A DNA stretch of 35,388 nucleotides from Microcaldota archaeon (lineage in GTDB: Archaea > Micrarchaeota > Micrarchaeia > Micrarchaeales > CABMGC01): positions 1 through 35,388 of the forward strand of contig JAJZNA010000032.1 in the NCBI GenBank assembly GCA_021848065.1, in the 5' to 3' direction. Below the pieces are notes generated by a model. The model saw nothing but the letters and a program-made list of their open reading frames with translations, made no database searches and was not told the origin of the DNA. A program made the translations under genes and the position numbers. Positions 28,555 to 34,983 of this stretch are shown one piece after another (position 1 is the first letter of the stretch; each line of letters opens with the position of its first letter).

Positions 28555-29415
28555 ATGAAAATAGAAGAGTTGAAGAATAAAATACCAGAGGTTTGTGCAG
28601 CTGCACGTATTATAGTGCAGGAACATGGGCATACGAAGAAGTTTGCGAAACATATAGTTGCATTAGTTGTGAAACAGATAAAACACCTGACGGATATTGA
28701 ACTTGTAGAATTTGTTGGTACGGATAAAATTGGAAAGATGTTAGGTTACAAAATTATGCCTACCTTTTCGACATTTTCAAAGGTAAGAGAACGCTCAGAT
28801 CCAAATATCCTTAGAGATTTGAATAATTGGATACTGCAAGATAGATTTAAAGGGAGACGAGTGCGCCTTCTTGCACCAGATAGTACTGACATAGATGCAA
28901 GTTCGCATGATGACAAAGATGCGAGATGGGGGCATAGAACGCCTTCGAAAAGAGAGCAGGAAGATGCAAATGGCAAAGCCAACGAGATGTTCTTTGGTTA
29001 CAAATTGCATGCAATTGCAGATGCAGAATCCGACATTCCATTGGGGTTCTTTATTGCACCTGGAAATAGGCATGACTCTGTATTTTTCCACAATTTGTTT
29101 GAAGATGTGAAGAAACGATTCTGCGTTATGTTTGGTGCCAAACTACTTGCAGATTCAGGATATGACGCAACGAGGATATACAAAGAAATCCATGACAATA
29201 ATATGGAGGCAGTTATTTCAAGAAACGGGAGAGGCCATAGAAAATCAGAGGTTCCAAAGGACCCAGAATATGGGAAAAGATGGTCTATTGAAAGGATATT
29301 CTCGCGTTTGAAGGAGGTATTCGGACTTTCCAAAAATAGGTTTATTGGCATCAAAAAGGTGTCAATTCACATCTATTCGTGCCTCATTGCATACTTGATG
29401 GAATATCTGATATGA
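28555..29415 (+). CDS. DDE (IS4/IS5-superfamily, DDE_Tnp_1-like) transposase
   Basis: LLAPDSTDIDAS, LLADSGYDATRIYKEI, GKRWSIERIFSRLKEVFGLSKNRF (R-E-K type C-motif). Confidence 0.85.
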   Translation: MKIEELKNKIPEVCAAARIIVQEHGHTKKFAKHIVALVVKQIKHLTDIELVEFVGTDKIGKMLGYKIMPTFSTFSKVRERSDPNILRDLNNWILQDRFKGRRVRLLAPDSTDIDASSHDDKDARWGHRTPSKREQEDANGKANEMFFGYKLHAIADAESDIPLGFFIAPGNRHDSVFFHNLFEDVKKRFCVMFGAKLLADSGYDATRIYKEIHDNNMEAVISRNGRGHRKSEVPKDPEYGKRWSIERIFSRLKEVFGLSKNRFIGIKKVSIHIYSCLIAYLMEYLI

Positions 29416-29914: not shown

Positions 29915-30814
29915 TCACGGCTGCGCGTATCCAGTAGTCCATGCTGACGTGTACGATACTGCTGTAGCCTGGCCGTTGTTAGAGTTGCCGCTGTAGTCCT
30001 GCGCGTTTCCATTAAGGGGCCACCATCCTACAACATGCAGCGGATCTATCGGCGCACCTCCAATGCCTTCAGTATAAAGCTCCTTTATCTGGTTGGCAGA
30101 TAGCGTCGTGTTGTATATTTGTATGTTGGACAGGTATCCATCGAAGTACGTGGAGTAAACCGGACCGCCGTACCCTATGTACAGCGGGTTCACTGATCCA
30201 TTCAGGGCTCCTTTTACGGATGCGCTTGATTTTCCAAGCAGTGCTCCATTCAGGTATACTGCTATCGTATTTGTGCTGGACTGGTACGTGACCGTGCCGA
30301 ATTGCCATTCGTTTACTGCTACTGGGGATGGCGTCTGGTAATAATTGGATCCGCTTGTAGTGGTCAGTCTGGTGCCCAGAACCGTGCTGGAATGGAACAT
30401 ATCGTACTCGTTGGTGCTTGTGCTCGACTCCTTGCCCAGTATCCTTACGGTTGATGACGGTATTGATGCAGCATTTATCCATGCCGCTATGGTGATGTTT
30501 GCCGGGTTAATGCTTCCACTTGACGGTATGGATACCTTGCTATTCTTTCCGTCAAACACAGCGACATACATGGGCAGCTCTCCCTGGCACTGCCCTTGCA
30601 GAGTCACGGACTCGACATTCCGCACAACCTGGCACGCTCCTGCCGTCGCCTTCGGTGCGAAGTTCGCAGAGTTGAATATCCCAAGTTCAAAAAGAGCAAC
30701 CATCACTATTGCAATGATGAGTATCGCCCATCCGTATGTCATCAGATACTCCATTGCAGATTGGGCCTTTGTCTTTCCTCTAAAACGACTAATTCCTGCC
30801 CAAACTCCGCGCAT
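29915..30814 (-). CDS. Class III signal peptide (pilin-like) LamG/jellyroll protein, array copy 1
   Basis: KAQSAMEYLMTYGWAILIIAIVMVALFELGIFNSANFAPKATAGACQVVRNVESVTLQGQCQGELPMYVAVFDG...GIGGAPIDPLHVVGWWPLNGNAQDYSGNSNNG... Confidence 0.85.
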   Translation of the reverse strand: MRGVWAGISRFRGKTKAQSAMEYLMTYGWAILIIAIVMVALFELGIFNSANFAPKATAGACQVVRNVESVTLQGQCQGELPMYVAVFDGKNSKVSIPSSGSINPANITIAAWINAASIPSSTVRILGKESSTSTNEYDMFHSSTVLGTRLTTTSGSNYYQTPSPVAVNEWQFGTVTYQSSTNTIAVYLNGALLGKSSASVKGALNGSVNPLYIGYGGPVYSTYFDGYLSNIQIYNTTLSANQIKELYTEGIGGAPIDPLHVVGWWPLNGNAQDYSGNSNNGQATAVSYTSAWTTGYAQP

Positions 30815-30818
30815 TCGA

Positions 30819-30860
30819 CAACTACCTGATTATAGTCTCTCGCAAAAGCAATAAATAACT
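30819..30860 (-). promoter_or_regulatory. Array promoter module, copy 1
   Basis: Minus strand GTTATTTATTGC...CTATAATCAGGTAGTTG shared with upstream regions of copies 4 and 5. Confidence 0.5.
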
Positions 30861-30868
30861 GACCGCAC

Positions 30869-31753
30869 TCACGGCTGCGTATACATCGAAGTCCACGCAG
30901 AGGTATAAGCTATCCCAGTTGCCTTTCCATTGTTCGAGTTGCCCGAGTAGTCCTGCGCGTTGCCGTTTAGCGGCCACCAGCCAACGATGTGGATCGGGTC
31001 TATGGGCGCGCCGCCGATGCCCTCCTGATACAGTTGCTGCACATCATTCGCAGATAGCGATTTGTTATATATCTGTACATTGGATATGAATCCCACCCAT
31101 TTGCCGCCCCAGCCATTTCCTATATCCAGCGGTGAACTTGCAGCTATTGCATTAGCATTCAAATTCTTGCTGCTGGTAGTCACAACGAGCTTCCCATTGA
31201 CATCGCGATAGTTTACGATGCTGTTTCCGTCATATGAAAAGGCATAGAAATGCAGGTTCCCATCGCTTACTTTAGGTGAGTATAAGCTGTATTGGATGGT
31301 ATCTATGTAAACCAGCTCATCACCGCCATATAATGCGTCCTGCCCCAACGATAATCCATAGGCATTGCCTGGATTATAGTTGACCATGCCCATGCTGCCA
31401 GTGGCAGATGTTGATGCCCACACTGTAATTGTCACAGAAGCGGAGCCTGAAGAGGTTATCGCATCTACTCCAGGTATATTCGCAACGCTTATTATGCTAT
31501 TGCCATCGAACTGCGCGACGTACCTGGGCAGCTCCCCCTGGCACTGCCCCTGCAGGGTTGTCGACTCGACATTCCGCACGACCTGGCAGGCCCCTGCCGA
31601 TGCCCTGGGTGCGAAATTGGAGCTGTTGAATACGCCCAACGCAAAAAGGGCAACCATAACCACTGCGATGATCAGTATCGCCCACCCATAAGTCATCAGG
31701 TACTCCATTGCAGACTGTATCTTGAATGACTTGCCACGCAGCTTATGTTCCAT
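30869..31753 (-). CDS. Class III signal peptide LamG/jellyroll protein, array copy 2
   Basis: KIQSAMEYLMTYGWAILIIAVVMVALFALGVFNSSNF...ELPRYVAQFDGNSII...GIGGAPIDPIHIVGWWPLNGNAQDYSGNSNNG. Confidence 0.85.
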   Translation of the reverse strand: MEHKLRGKSFKIQSAMEYLMTYGWAILIIAVVMVALFALGVFNSSNFAPRASAGACQVVRNVESTTLQGQCQGELPRYVAQFDGNSIISVANIPGVDAITSSGSASVTITVWASTSATGSMGMVNYNPGNAYGLSLGQDALYGGDELVYIDTIQYSLYSPKVSDGNLHFYAFSYDGNSIVNYRDVNGKLVVTTSSKNLNANAIAASSPLDIGNGWGGKWVGFISNVQIYNKSLSANDVQQLYQEGIGGAPIDPIHIVGWWPLNGNAQDYSGNSNNGKATGIAYTSAWTSMYTQP

Positions 31754-31756
31754 TAC

Positions 31757-31796
31757 CCTACCTGAAAATTGATTGCATGTGAAACAATAAATAACT
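31757..31796 (-). promoter_or_regulatory. Array promoter module, copy 2
   Basis: Minus strand GTTATTTATTGT...AATTTTCAGGTAGG. Confidence 0.45.
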
Positions 31797-31804
31797 TTCA
31801 GACC

Positions 31805-32680
31805 TCACGGCTGCGAATATCCCGAGGTCCACGCTGCAGTGTATGAAACTCCAGTAGAATTGCCGTTGTTGGAATTGCCCGAGTAGTCCTGCGCGTTACC
31901 ATTAAGCGGCCACCACGCCACTATATGTACTGGATCTATGGGCGCGCCGCCGATCCCCTCCAGATAGAGCTGTTCAACGTCATTGGCTGATAGCGATACA
32001 TTGTATATTTGCACATTGGATATGTCCCCTTTCACGTAGTCTCCCTTGTAATATGGGTTATACCCTATTGCAACGCTGATGTTGCTCCATACTGTTCCGG
32101 TGAAGCTCCCGGCACCTACTTGCTTGCCGTCTATGTATGCTTTGACGCTTCCTGCTGACCTGTCATAAGTGCCTACATAGTAGTACCATTCTCCCGGATG
32201 TATCGTATATGCCCAAGCTGCAGTGCCTTTAGATATGCTATTACCTACATCAAACCATCCACCAGCTCCGCCATCGTTCATCATCAGCTGGAAGCCCACG
32301 TTGTTCGAATCAGTATGCCCGTTAGCAACGATTCTCGGATTCTGGCCATAGCTTACGTTCGGAAAATACATCCACGCGCTTACGGTCATGGAACCCATGT
32401 TGTCAGTGAAATAAGGTGTACTTATGTATGATAATCCTTTGAAATAAGGCACATACATGGGCAGCTCCCCCTGGCACTGACCCTGCAGCGTTGTCGATTC
32501 GACATTCCTCACGACCTGACACGCCCCTGCAGTTGCCCTTGGGCTGAAGTTTGAACTGTTGAATACGCCCAGTGCGAAGAGTGCAACCATCACAACTGCG
32601 ATAATCAGTATCGCCCACCCATAAGTCATCAGGTACTCCATTGCAGACTGAAGTTTGTATCCGTGGCTTGTGCGCTGCAT
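31805..32680 (-). CDS. Class III signal peptide LamG/jellyroll protein, array copy 3
   Basis: KLQSAMEYLMTYGWAILIIAVVMVALFALGVFNSSNFSPRATAGACQVVRNVESTTLQGQC...; start at ATG 32680 preferred over 32695 from TATA spacing. Confidence 0.8.
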   Translation of the reverse strand: MQRTSHGYKLQSAMEYLMTYGWAILIIAVVMVALFALGVFNSSNFSPRATAGACQVVRNVESTTLQGQCQGELPMYVPYFKGLSYISTPYFTDNMGSMTVSAWMYFPNVSYGQNPRIVANGHTDSNNVGFQLMMNDGGAGGWFDVGNSISKGTAAWAYTIHPGEWYYYVGTYDRSAGSVKAYIDGKQVGAGSFTGTVWSNISVAIGYNPYYKGDYVKGDISNVQIYNVSLSANDVEQLYLEGIGGAPIDPVHIVAWWPLNGNAQDYSGNSNNGNSTGVSYTAAWTSGYSQP

Positions 32681-32740
32681 AGAAGTATCGCCCATGCAAA
32701 TATTATATTACTTTTGAAGTGGGCTATTGGGGCTTCATGT

Positions 32741-33577
32741 TTACGGCTGCGTGTACCCGGAAGTCCACGCCGACGTATACGACACCCCGCTTGCCTTGCC
32801 ATTATTTCCGCTGCCAGAGTAGTCGTTTGCATCCCCGTTCAGCGGCCACCATCCAACAACGTTGAGTGGAGATATCGGCACGCCCCCTATCCCTGCCATG
32901 TACTGCGACTTTATGTCATTGGCTTGAAGCGATGTGTTGTACATCTGTACATTGGCAATGGCTATGGTAGGGGCAGCTGCCTGGGGACCTATTGTCCAGT
33001 TTGATATTGTAGAGCCACCGCTGCATGACCACGCCCCTCCAGTTAAAACGCCATTTATGTAAACGGAACACAAGCTCCCGTCATCAACCCCTATCACATT
33101 ATACCAGGTGTTCAGGGCCGGCTTAAAAATGCCTATGCTACGTCCTGGAAATTTACACCACATGGTATTCGAGGAATCAAAAACACATCCGCCCAGAGCA
33201 GTTGAGAATATCGTGGGGTAATTTGTTGAGGATAGTGTCTGTTCTTGGAACCAAAACGAGAAAGAATAGGAATTTGATAGTTTGGTGGAGGAAATCAACA
33301 CCTTCCCGCTAGGTCCTGGTACGAGCACAAATTGCGGTATCTCATTGCCGCACTGCCCTTCAAGGTTAATCCCTTCGACATTCCTCACGACCTGGCATGC
33401 CCCTGCAGTTGCCCTTGGGGTAAAATTGGCAGAATTAAACACGCCCAACGCAAAAAGGGCAACCATCACTATTGCAATTATCAGTATGGCCCAGCCATAA
33501 GTCATCAGGTACTCCATTGCAGACTGGGCCTTGAATCTTCTGTCTGAATGATTCAGGTATGCCCAGGATCTGTACAT
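32741..33577 (-). CDS. Class III signal peptide LamG/jellyroll protein, array copy 4 (most divergent)
   Basis: KAQSAMEYLMTYGWAILIIAIVMVALFALGVFNSANFTPRATAGACQVVRNVEGINLEGQCGNEIPQFV...GIGGVPISPLNVVGWWPLNGDANDYSGSGNNG. Confidence 0.85.
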   Translation of the reverse strand: MYRSWAYLNHSDRRFKAQSAMEYLMTYGWAILIIAIVMVALFALGVFNSANFTPRATAGACQVVRNVEGINLEGQCGNEIPQFVLVPGPSGKVLISSTKLSNSYSFSFWFQEQTLSSTNYPTIFSTALGGCVFDSSNTMWCKFPGRSIGIFKPALNTWYNVIGVDDGSLCSVYINGVLTGGAWSCSGGSTISNWTIGPQAAAPTIAIANVQMYNTSLQANDIKSQYMAGIGGVPISPLNVVGWWPLNGDANDYSGSGNNGKASGVSYTSAWTSGYTQP

Positions 33578-33635: not shown

Positions 33636-34541
33636 TCATGGCTGCACATATCCTGACATCCAAGCCGAAGTGTACGCCACTGCGCTCTGCTGTGCGTTGT
33701 TAGAGTTGCCGCTGTAGTCCTGCGTGTTACCATTAAGCGGCCACCAGCCTATCACGTTCAAAGGGTCTATCGGCGCCCCACCCAAACCCTGCGAGTAAAG
33801 CTGTTTTATCTCGTTTGCAGATAGGGAAGTGTTGTAGAATTGGTAATTGGCAATCATGCCTTTATAGCGCGCGCCGGAGCCGCAATTTGTGCTGTCAGGA
33901 ATACCGAGTGCATAGAACATAGAATATGCGCCGCCAGGCACCGTACGCACTCCGGTTCCGCTGTTTCCAAAAGCGCCGTTTATGTACCCTTTGTAAGCGC
34001 TTCCATCATAAGTCATCACTATGTTGCTCCACTGGTTTGTCGGCACGGTGCCTATATTGACGCATGCAAGTGCCCACATCCGTATGTAAACGCTTCCAGA
34101 GACGAGCTCTATCCAGGTATCGTGCCACGAGCTGCTGGATGCCGGCAGGGTTTCTACCTCATCAACAATATCTCCGCTTGTAGAGGCAGGGTTTATCCAG
34201 ATGGATATGGTGAACTTCTGGCTATTGCTGTTCATGGAAGCAAAGCCCGTGTTCTGCACTGCATAACTGCTCTGCCCATTTAACTGCGCGACATACATCG
34301 GCAGCTCTCCTTGGCACTGCCCCTGCAGCGTAACCGATTCGACATTCCTCACGACCTGGCACGCTCCTGCCGTCGCCTTCGGTGCGAAATTGGCAGAGTT
34401 GAAGATGCCCAGCTCGAACAGGGCAACCATCACTATTGCAATGATGAGTATCGCCCATCCGTATGTCATCAGATATTCCATTGCAGACTGGAGTTTCAGA
34501 TTTCTGCGATTACGCCAATTGCCTGCCCCGAACCTGCACAT
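33636..34541 (-). CDS. Class III signal peptide LamG/jellyroll protein, array copy 5
   Basis: KLQSAMEYLMTYGWAILIIAIVMVALFELGIFNSANFAPKATAGACQVVRNVESVTLQGQCQGELPMYVAQLNG...GLGGAPIDPLNVIGWWPLNGNTQDYSGNSNNA. Confidence 0.85.
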   Translation of the reverse strand: MCRFGAGNWRNRRNLKLQSAMEYLMTYGWAILIIAIVMVALFELGIFNSANFAPKATAGACQVVRNVESVTLQGQCQGELPMYVAQLNGQSSYAVQNTGFASMNSNSQKFTISIWINPASTSGDIVDEVETLPASSSSWHDTWIELVSGSVYIRMWALACVNIGTVPTNQWSNIVMTYDGSAYKGYINGAFGNSGTGVRTVPGGAYSMFYALGIPDSTNCGSGARYKGMIANYQFYNTSLSANEIKQLYSQGLGGAPIDPLNVIGWWPLNGNTQDYSGNSNNAQQSAVAYTSAWMSGYVQP

Positions 34542-34600: not shown

Positions 34601-34890
34601 TCACGGCGGTGTGTACCCAGAAGTCCATGAGGATATGTACGAGACCCCTGTCGATTGGTCGTTGTTTGCGTTTCCAGAGTAGTCATTCGCGTTACCATTA
34701 AGCGACCATCATGTGACCAGGTGGGTGATATCTACGGGCATTCCTCCTATCACTCCAGCATAGAGCGCGCTTATCTGGTTTGCATCAAGCGATGTGTTGT
34801 ACACTTGCATATTCGATACCATGCCCTGGAATGGGGACACCGCGGTGCCTATGACCCACTTCTCGTTAGCTTCGTAGTAGCTGCCTGCTG
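34601..34890 (-). pseudogene. Degenerate sixth LamG copy (C-terminal part only, internal stop)
   Basis: Minus strand reads YYEANEKWVIGTAVSPFQGMVSNMQVYNTSLDANQISALYAGVIGGMPVDITHLVT*WSLNGNANDYSGNANDQSTGVSYISSWTSGYTPP*; TGG-to-TGA at the conserved WWPLNG. Confidence 0.75.
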
Positions 34891-34983
34891 GGCCTGAGCG
34901 CCAGCAAGGGCCATATTGGACTGGAGTAAAATCGCCATGATTATGGCAAGGCTGCTATAGCGCATCCCCAAAATTCTGTTCAT
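34849..34983 (-). CDS. Short ORF with Sec-type signal peptide overlapping the pseudogene (probable truncated remnant)
   Basis: MNRILGMRYSSLAIIMAILLQSNMALAGAQAQQAATTKLTRSGS*; frame shifts into LamG remnant. Confidence 0.35.
   Translation of the reverse strand: MNRILGMRYSSLAIIMAILLQSNMALAGAQAQQAATTKLTRSGS

Follow-up and report, generated by a model that had tools for sequence, protein, structure and literature searches.

Evidence for an order-wide circular permutation of the LamG jellyroll on archaeal pilin-like proteins

In this work, we analyzed a stretch of 35,388 nucleotides (contig JAJZNA010000032.1 of assembly GCA_021848065.1, from a Microcaldota archaeon of the order Micrarchaeales; hereafter the window), which carries an array of genes for pilin-like proteins with a LamG jellyroll as head. 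These heads very probably represent a genuine circular permutation of the jellyroll by its opening segment, found throughout the order. The opening with which LamG domains usually begin (WPLDGN..D.SGN.N.G) was absent from the N-terminus and present as a C-terminal tail in 5/5 LamG pilins of the window and 17/17 of the genome it comes from. A permutation had been proposed in a sequence-only reading of the window, and it is supported by the homology of the tail to canonical openings, the gain in score when the tail is rotated to the front, BLASTP matches in swapped order, a clean phylogenetic distribution and the place of the WW strand in the predicted sheet. The main claim of that reading holds and is stronger than stated, because the permutation is a property of the whole order.

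The C-terminal tail and the canonical LamG opening

Each pilin of the window runs from a hydrophobic helix through a Cys hairpin, 'YVAxFDG' and '..VQIYNxSLSANxIxxLY' to a tail with the consensus 'GIGGAPIDPxHxVGWWPLNGNxxDYSGNxNNGxxxxVxYTSxWTSGYxQP*', which is the reversed order described earlier (Cys loop, FDG strand first, WWPLNG segment last). The statement that the N-terminal linker has no WPLDGN motif was likewise borne out, with an upstream opening score of 0 for every pilin head: in none did an opening precede the core, as it does in the canonical order, and the opening lay downstream. We built a profile of the opening from 42 canonical-order domains (32 from other Micrarchaeota families, 10 bacterial or haloarchaeal) and scored it against 84 pilins, with 840 shuffled proteins as control. 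It matched 84/84 pilins, always inside the tail, with 14.6-34.4 bits, the best of the 840 shuffles reaching 6.1.

The sequence-only reading had suggested searching with PF13385 and a concatenated query for one continuous hit across the C-to-N junction. With PF13385 itself this check was uninformative: the model begins with the FDG strand and spans the whole pilin domain, so that such a junction test is blind to the permutation. For the same reason, since the Pfam model omits the opening strand, Pfam-based annotation hides the permutation entirely. We therefore replaced it by a second profile, of the whole canonical-order LamG domain including the opening, and with this profile a doubled or rotated query gave one continuous match crossing the C-to-N junction. 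Its mean score was 74.6 bits for the native pilins and 94.6 with the tail placed in front, but 73.6 if the tail so placed had been shuffled; the gain from moving the tail averaged 20 bits and was seen in 83/84 pilins. When all cut points were compared, the best was the start of the tail in 5/5 window proteins.

The same swap was apparent in a pairwise comparison. In BLASTP of a viral LamG protein (L189) against the third pilin gene of the window, residues 3-32 matched 258-287 (E 3e-9) and residues 114-198 matched 168-244, in swapped order. The viral protein is itself of canonical order, with the opening LVGWWPLNGDAKDRSGNLNHG; it was found through the pattern GWWPLNG, so its nearness to the tail is partly selected, whereas its domain order is not. 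The homology is crossed: the N-terminal part of either protein corresponds to the C-terminal part of its counterpart. In pairwise tests, the tail scored well above shuffled controls against its closest openings (those of L189 and of a second viral contig, L190), whereas against distant openings alone it did not; comparison of the tail alone with solved structures returned only chance matches. Both viral contigs encode multi-LamG proteins of canonical order, and their opening, LVGWWPLNGDxxDxSGN, is the closest match to the pilin clasp found outside Micrarchaeota.

Distribution and origin of the permuted order

Domain orders were counted at loci chosen by PF13385 only, the order of the window comprising families f1 and f2. 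Among the first LamG domains of proteins from these two families, the opening lay downstream in 29/32 and upstream in 0/32; the three unscored ones have, by eye, degenerate downstream openings (AVWLPLYGSVSDHS, QFWLPLFGSASDHS, AWVPLEGDGNSYG). Among single LamG domains in the remaining families of the class, 13/14 had the opening only upstream. A search with the 50-residue tail found it in 62/116 genomes of the phylum, all of them f1 or f2; it was absent from two listed genomes of these families, and no other listed family has it. The canonical order was found in every other sampled family of the class and in the sampled bacterial, haloarchaeal and viral LamG domains. Further permuted copies were not found in phages and plasmids, where the inspected plasmid LamG matches were canonical and the viral contigs gave two canonical-order proteins, and literature searches returned nothing on permuted LamG domains in Micrarchaeota. 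The circular permutation is encoded in the gene, and its phylogenetic border is sharp: one archaeal order has it throughout, and the remaining families of the class show the canonical order.

Several related proteins are of note. Outside the order, family f6 has a pilin-like protein of 341 amino acids (L153) with comparable architecture and canonical order, and a Miltoncostaea plasmid (L111:403-1773) encodes a bacterial pseudopilin with a canonical-order LamG head, that is, the same pilin-lectin idea in the other strand order. One relative's LamG pilin with the WWPL clasp (L024:3782-5764, plus strand; 661 amino acids) continues, by eye, into a long Ser/Thr/Asn linker and two Hint (intein-like) repeats. 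Within the order, G067 and other relatives reach up to 51 tail matches in about 0.8 Mb, which is an extreme expansion given how reduced the genome is.

Both registers can occur in one chain. In a protein of 1098 amino acids from the genome of the window, domain 1 has an opening downstream only, domains 2-4 have theirs upstream, and none follows domain 4; the upstream opening of domain 2 scored only 5.2 bits, yet it is visible as TAWWPMVYGSGTTLYDLSS. The four cores and four openings allow one consistent assignment, so that domain 1 is permuted and domains 2-4 are canonical. Relatives repeat this pattern in LamG proteins of three or four domains, with openings between the cores, the first domain permuted and the later ones canonical. 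In the same genome (L186; C22:76000-92500), a pilus operon with an ATPase and two TadC-like proteins stands beside three large surface proteins with pilin-like N-termini and 4, 1 and 2 LamG domains; the protein of 1098 amino acids is among the large LamG proteins encoded next to the pilus operon.

The model of permutation by duplication predicts tandem arrays as intermediates (PMC3320104), and the tandem LamG arrays are the intermediates expected under it. A tandem array would have been truncated such that the gene starts inside one repeat, after its opening, and stops in the next repeat just before the FDG strand. A single origin of this kind, by duplication and truncation in the stem of the order, appears most likely. 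In a tree of the cores, the order's domains cluster (4 changes versus 23.6 when shuffled), but the tree does not settle a single origin. The sharp border, the up to 51 tail matches per genome and the two registers in one chain make the duplication-and-truncation route testable in detail.

Predicted structure of the head and alternative explanations

AlphaFold2 models were obtained for the first pilin (mean predicted local distance difference test, pLDDT, 83.4; predicted template modelling score, pTM, 0.77) and for the divergent fourth (73.3 and 0.63). In both monomer models VVGWW forms a strand right after the C-terminal helix (residues 261-265 and 240-244, respectively). Being a strand of a monomer model, it is predicted to pair within the chain and to pack into the sheet of its own molecule. 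The heads may be pictured as LamG jellyrolls on archaeal type IV-like pilins, permuted by an opening segment of about 38 residues that comprises the first strand, the D-x-SGN loop and the return. The N-terminal helix would presumably pack in the pilus and the Cys hairpin form a neck; the stalk would join the head at the FDG strand, which comes second in a canonical LamG domain. From there the chain would cross the whole jellyroll to the C-terminal helix, take a conserved 11-residue turn (GIGGAPIDPxH) and return VVGWW, once the first strand, to the sheet as its last, so that the domain is clasped by its C-terminus next to the point of entry. The head would then be tethered at a different edge, as the sequence-only reading had suggested, and the pilus would show many heads whose variable cores presumably serve as binding surfaces and whose helix and clasp stay constant.

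Some observations weigh against this reading: (i) the confidence of the tail of the first pilin is only moderate (means of 76 and 59 for the blocks of residues 261-280); (ii) it is low at the end of the fourth, where residues 262-278 fall below 50; (iii) the 84-sequence set overstates tail conservation, having been collected in part through WWPLNG patterns; and (iv) the cores are too diverged to prove a single origin.

A tail strand that supplies the missing strand to the jellyroll of the next subunit in the filament, in the manner of donor-strand exchange, would give a type IV-like pilus with lectin heads clasped by donor strands, and in tandem proteins an inter-domain strand serving either adjoining domain. 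Such an exchange is conceivable because the permutation puts a detachable last strand at the free C-terminus, where it would be ideally placed, and no other part of the head is nearly as conserved as the tail, as expected of an interface. We nevertheless regard it as unlikely: in both monomer models the strand is paired inside its own chain, a short and constant linker joins helix and strand, the assembly of type IV-like pili proceeds through the N-terminal helix and has no need of strand exchange, and the same arrangement occurs in large surface proteins outside the arrays.

The second alternative involves no permutation event, the heads having simply retained a pentraxin-type order with the extra strand always C-terminal. 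Pentraxins dominate the Foldseek matches (e.g. 8pvq, with a template modelling score on the target, TMt, of 0.76 over 219 columns), most of which cover 212-226 columns on targets of about 200 residues with TMt 0.68-0.76. C-reactive protein has strands A and B at its N-terminal end and strands L and M at its C-terminal end (PMC5784126). The mature protein, whose sequence we verified, has the equivalent strand at its start and NVLNWRALKYEVQGEV at its end; hhalign aligns the latter with VVGWWPLNGNAQ, and the alignment runs through WWPLNGN. In the pilin heads, too, the FDG-type strand comes first and the extra strand last; the permuted order is the ordinary order of pentraxins, and the fold has it already. 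It is with respect to LamG_3 that the order has changed, and the tail motif links the heads to LamG_3 and not to pentraxins. The Pfam Pentaxin model (PF00354) matches 9/17 paralogues weakly, and its recorded scores (14.3-16.6 bits) lie below its gathering score of 25, against up to 83.9 for Laminin_G_3; the tail can be matched to canonical LamG openings position by position (D-x-SGN-x-N-x-G), and the end of pentraxins lacks this motif; and, as described above, LamG domains sampled outside the order are canonical. Retention of a pentraxin order is therefore quite improbable, and a permutation relative to LamG_3 suggests that LamG and pentraxin strand orders can interconvert.

The tail might also be the leftover start of a deleted second LamG domain with no structural role, given that the same genome has tandem LamG proteins with openings between their cores. 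Its conservation makes this very improbable. Mean entropy was 0.58 bits for the clasp and 0.53 for the helix, against 2.72 for the core; part of the clasp value reflects how the sequences were searched for, but the same trend was seen in an unbiased set, the 17 copies of the own genome found through their cores. Tails of paralogues are 70-75% identical, whereas codons at identical residues agree in only 42-47%, so that the tail is held by purifying selection on the protein and not by recent copying. WWPLNG, DYSG, W292 and Y296 are invariant or nearly so, and the spacing from VQIYN to WWPL is 36 in 99/100 open reading frames (ORFs). Gene conversion as the cause of tail conservation was rejected, since in the window copies codon identity at identical residues was 0.47 in the tail versus 0.41 in the core; it was somewhat higher, 0.60, in the N-terminal module. 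Lastly, the tail might be an unrelated glycine/asparagine-rich motif that is like the LamG opening by chance or convergence; in favour of this, it has only about 25 residues, many of them of kinds common in loops. The profile, rotation, cut-scan and closest-opening pairwise tests, however, all lie far above their shuffled controls, and this reading can practically be dismissed.

The pilin array, its genomic context and comparison with known systems

All genes of the array lie on the minus strand. Gene 1 (29915..30814; 299 amino acids) encodes a hydrophobic pilin helix, a Cys61-Cys76 hairpin, a LamG core (30083..30553, residues 88-244, aligned to positions 1-151 of PF13385) and the permuted C-terminal opening segment (29918..30067; GIGGAPIDPLHVVGWWPLNGNAQDYSGNSNNGQATAVSYTSAWTTGYAQP). 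The same architecture is found in gene 2 (30869..31753; 294 amino acids; opening segment 30872..31021), gene 3 (31805..32695; 296 amino acids; 31808..31957) and gene 5 (33636..34541; 301 amino acids; 33639..33788), whereas gene 4 (32741..33577; 278 amino acids; 32744..32893) has the most divergent core. PF13385 scores were 83.4, 40.4, 78.8, 28.4 and 60.1 bits for genes 1 to 5, all above the gathering score of 27.6. The four ORFs reported in the sequence-only reading are all present, its coordinates omitting the fifth gene. A decayed copy at 34604..34900 (minus strand) comprises a C-terminal third in which an in-frame TGA separates the core from the tail (THLVT*WSLNGNANDYSGNANN); it lies immediately behind what remains of the start of a secreted protein (~34984) and could be a silent cassette or plain decay. 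On the other side, the array adjoins a transposase-like ORF, read by eye (28555-29415, plus strand), which is a possible source of its rearrangements.

The genome (1.2 Mb, 35 contigs), whose closest named relatives are Micrarchaeota bins, has 17 LamG pilin genes in arrays and as singles, one of them cut by a contig end. All 17 share a K-x-QSAMEYL.. hydrophobic helix, a Cys hairpin, a variable LamG core and the strongly conserved 50-residue tail. Nearly all copies have a short charged leader followed by the QSAMEYL.. helix with Glu at +5 (K-x-QSAMEYLMTYGWAILII); the helix spans residues 16-44 in the models. Among Pfam matches at E<=1 there was no curated pilin family, and the only hint of one in NCBIfam, a match to the TafC fimbrial model, was far below its cut-off and ran through the LamG part. 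The pilins co-occur with pilus machinery: the genome encodes a T2SSE ATPase, two T2SSF proteins and a prepilin peptidase, with ATPase and T2SSF in the pilus operon. The pilins probably assemble into pili, and their heads may serve adhesion to a host or a surface, in line with the views of LamG proteins in such archaea in the part of the published account considered here (PMC5498576). They sit on proteins that host-dependent archaea may use to touch their hosts.

Related arrangements are known in other systems. In the ARMAN-2-related archaeon Mia14, the same part of that account describes expanded LamG-like genes, some linked to type IV pilus loci and proposed for host contact, and does not mention strand order or permutation (PMC5498576). 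With the bacterial and archaeal Laminin_G_3 domains (PF13385), the pilin heads share a core that passes the Pfam cut-off and the opening WPLxGNxxDxSGNxNxG; unlike in those domains, the opening follows the core, and the new termini lie just before the FDG strand. With pentraxins (C-reactive protein, SAP and PTX3; PF00354), the heads have in common an FDG-type first strand, the C-terminal helix and a last strand, and these are their best fold matches in the PDB; however, the heads fall below the Pfam cut-off, the two have no common tail motif, and the heads are borne on a pilin helix instead of forming a secreted pentamer. Circular permutation within the same jellyroll superfamily is represented by concanavalin A and favin (PMC3320104), although concanavalin A is permuted after translation, whereas the pilins are permuted in the gene and only the first segment has moved. 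In the type I and type II topologies of C2 domains (PMC12051499), an edge strand of a beta-sandwich is likewise moved from the N- to the C-terminus and both forms are natural, albeit in another fold and another lineage. Finally, potato type II inhibitors and swaposins (PMC2259423, PMC3320104) are examples of permuted domains arising from tandem repeats of ambiguous register, as proposed here for the LamG pilins, in unrelated folds that are not archaeal.

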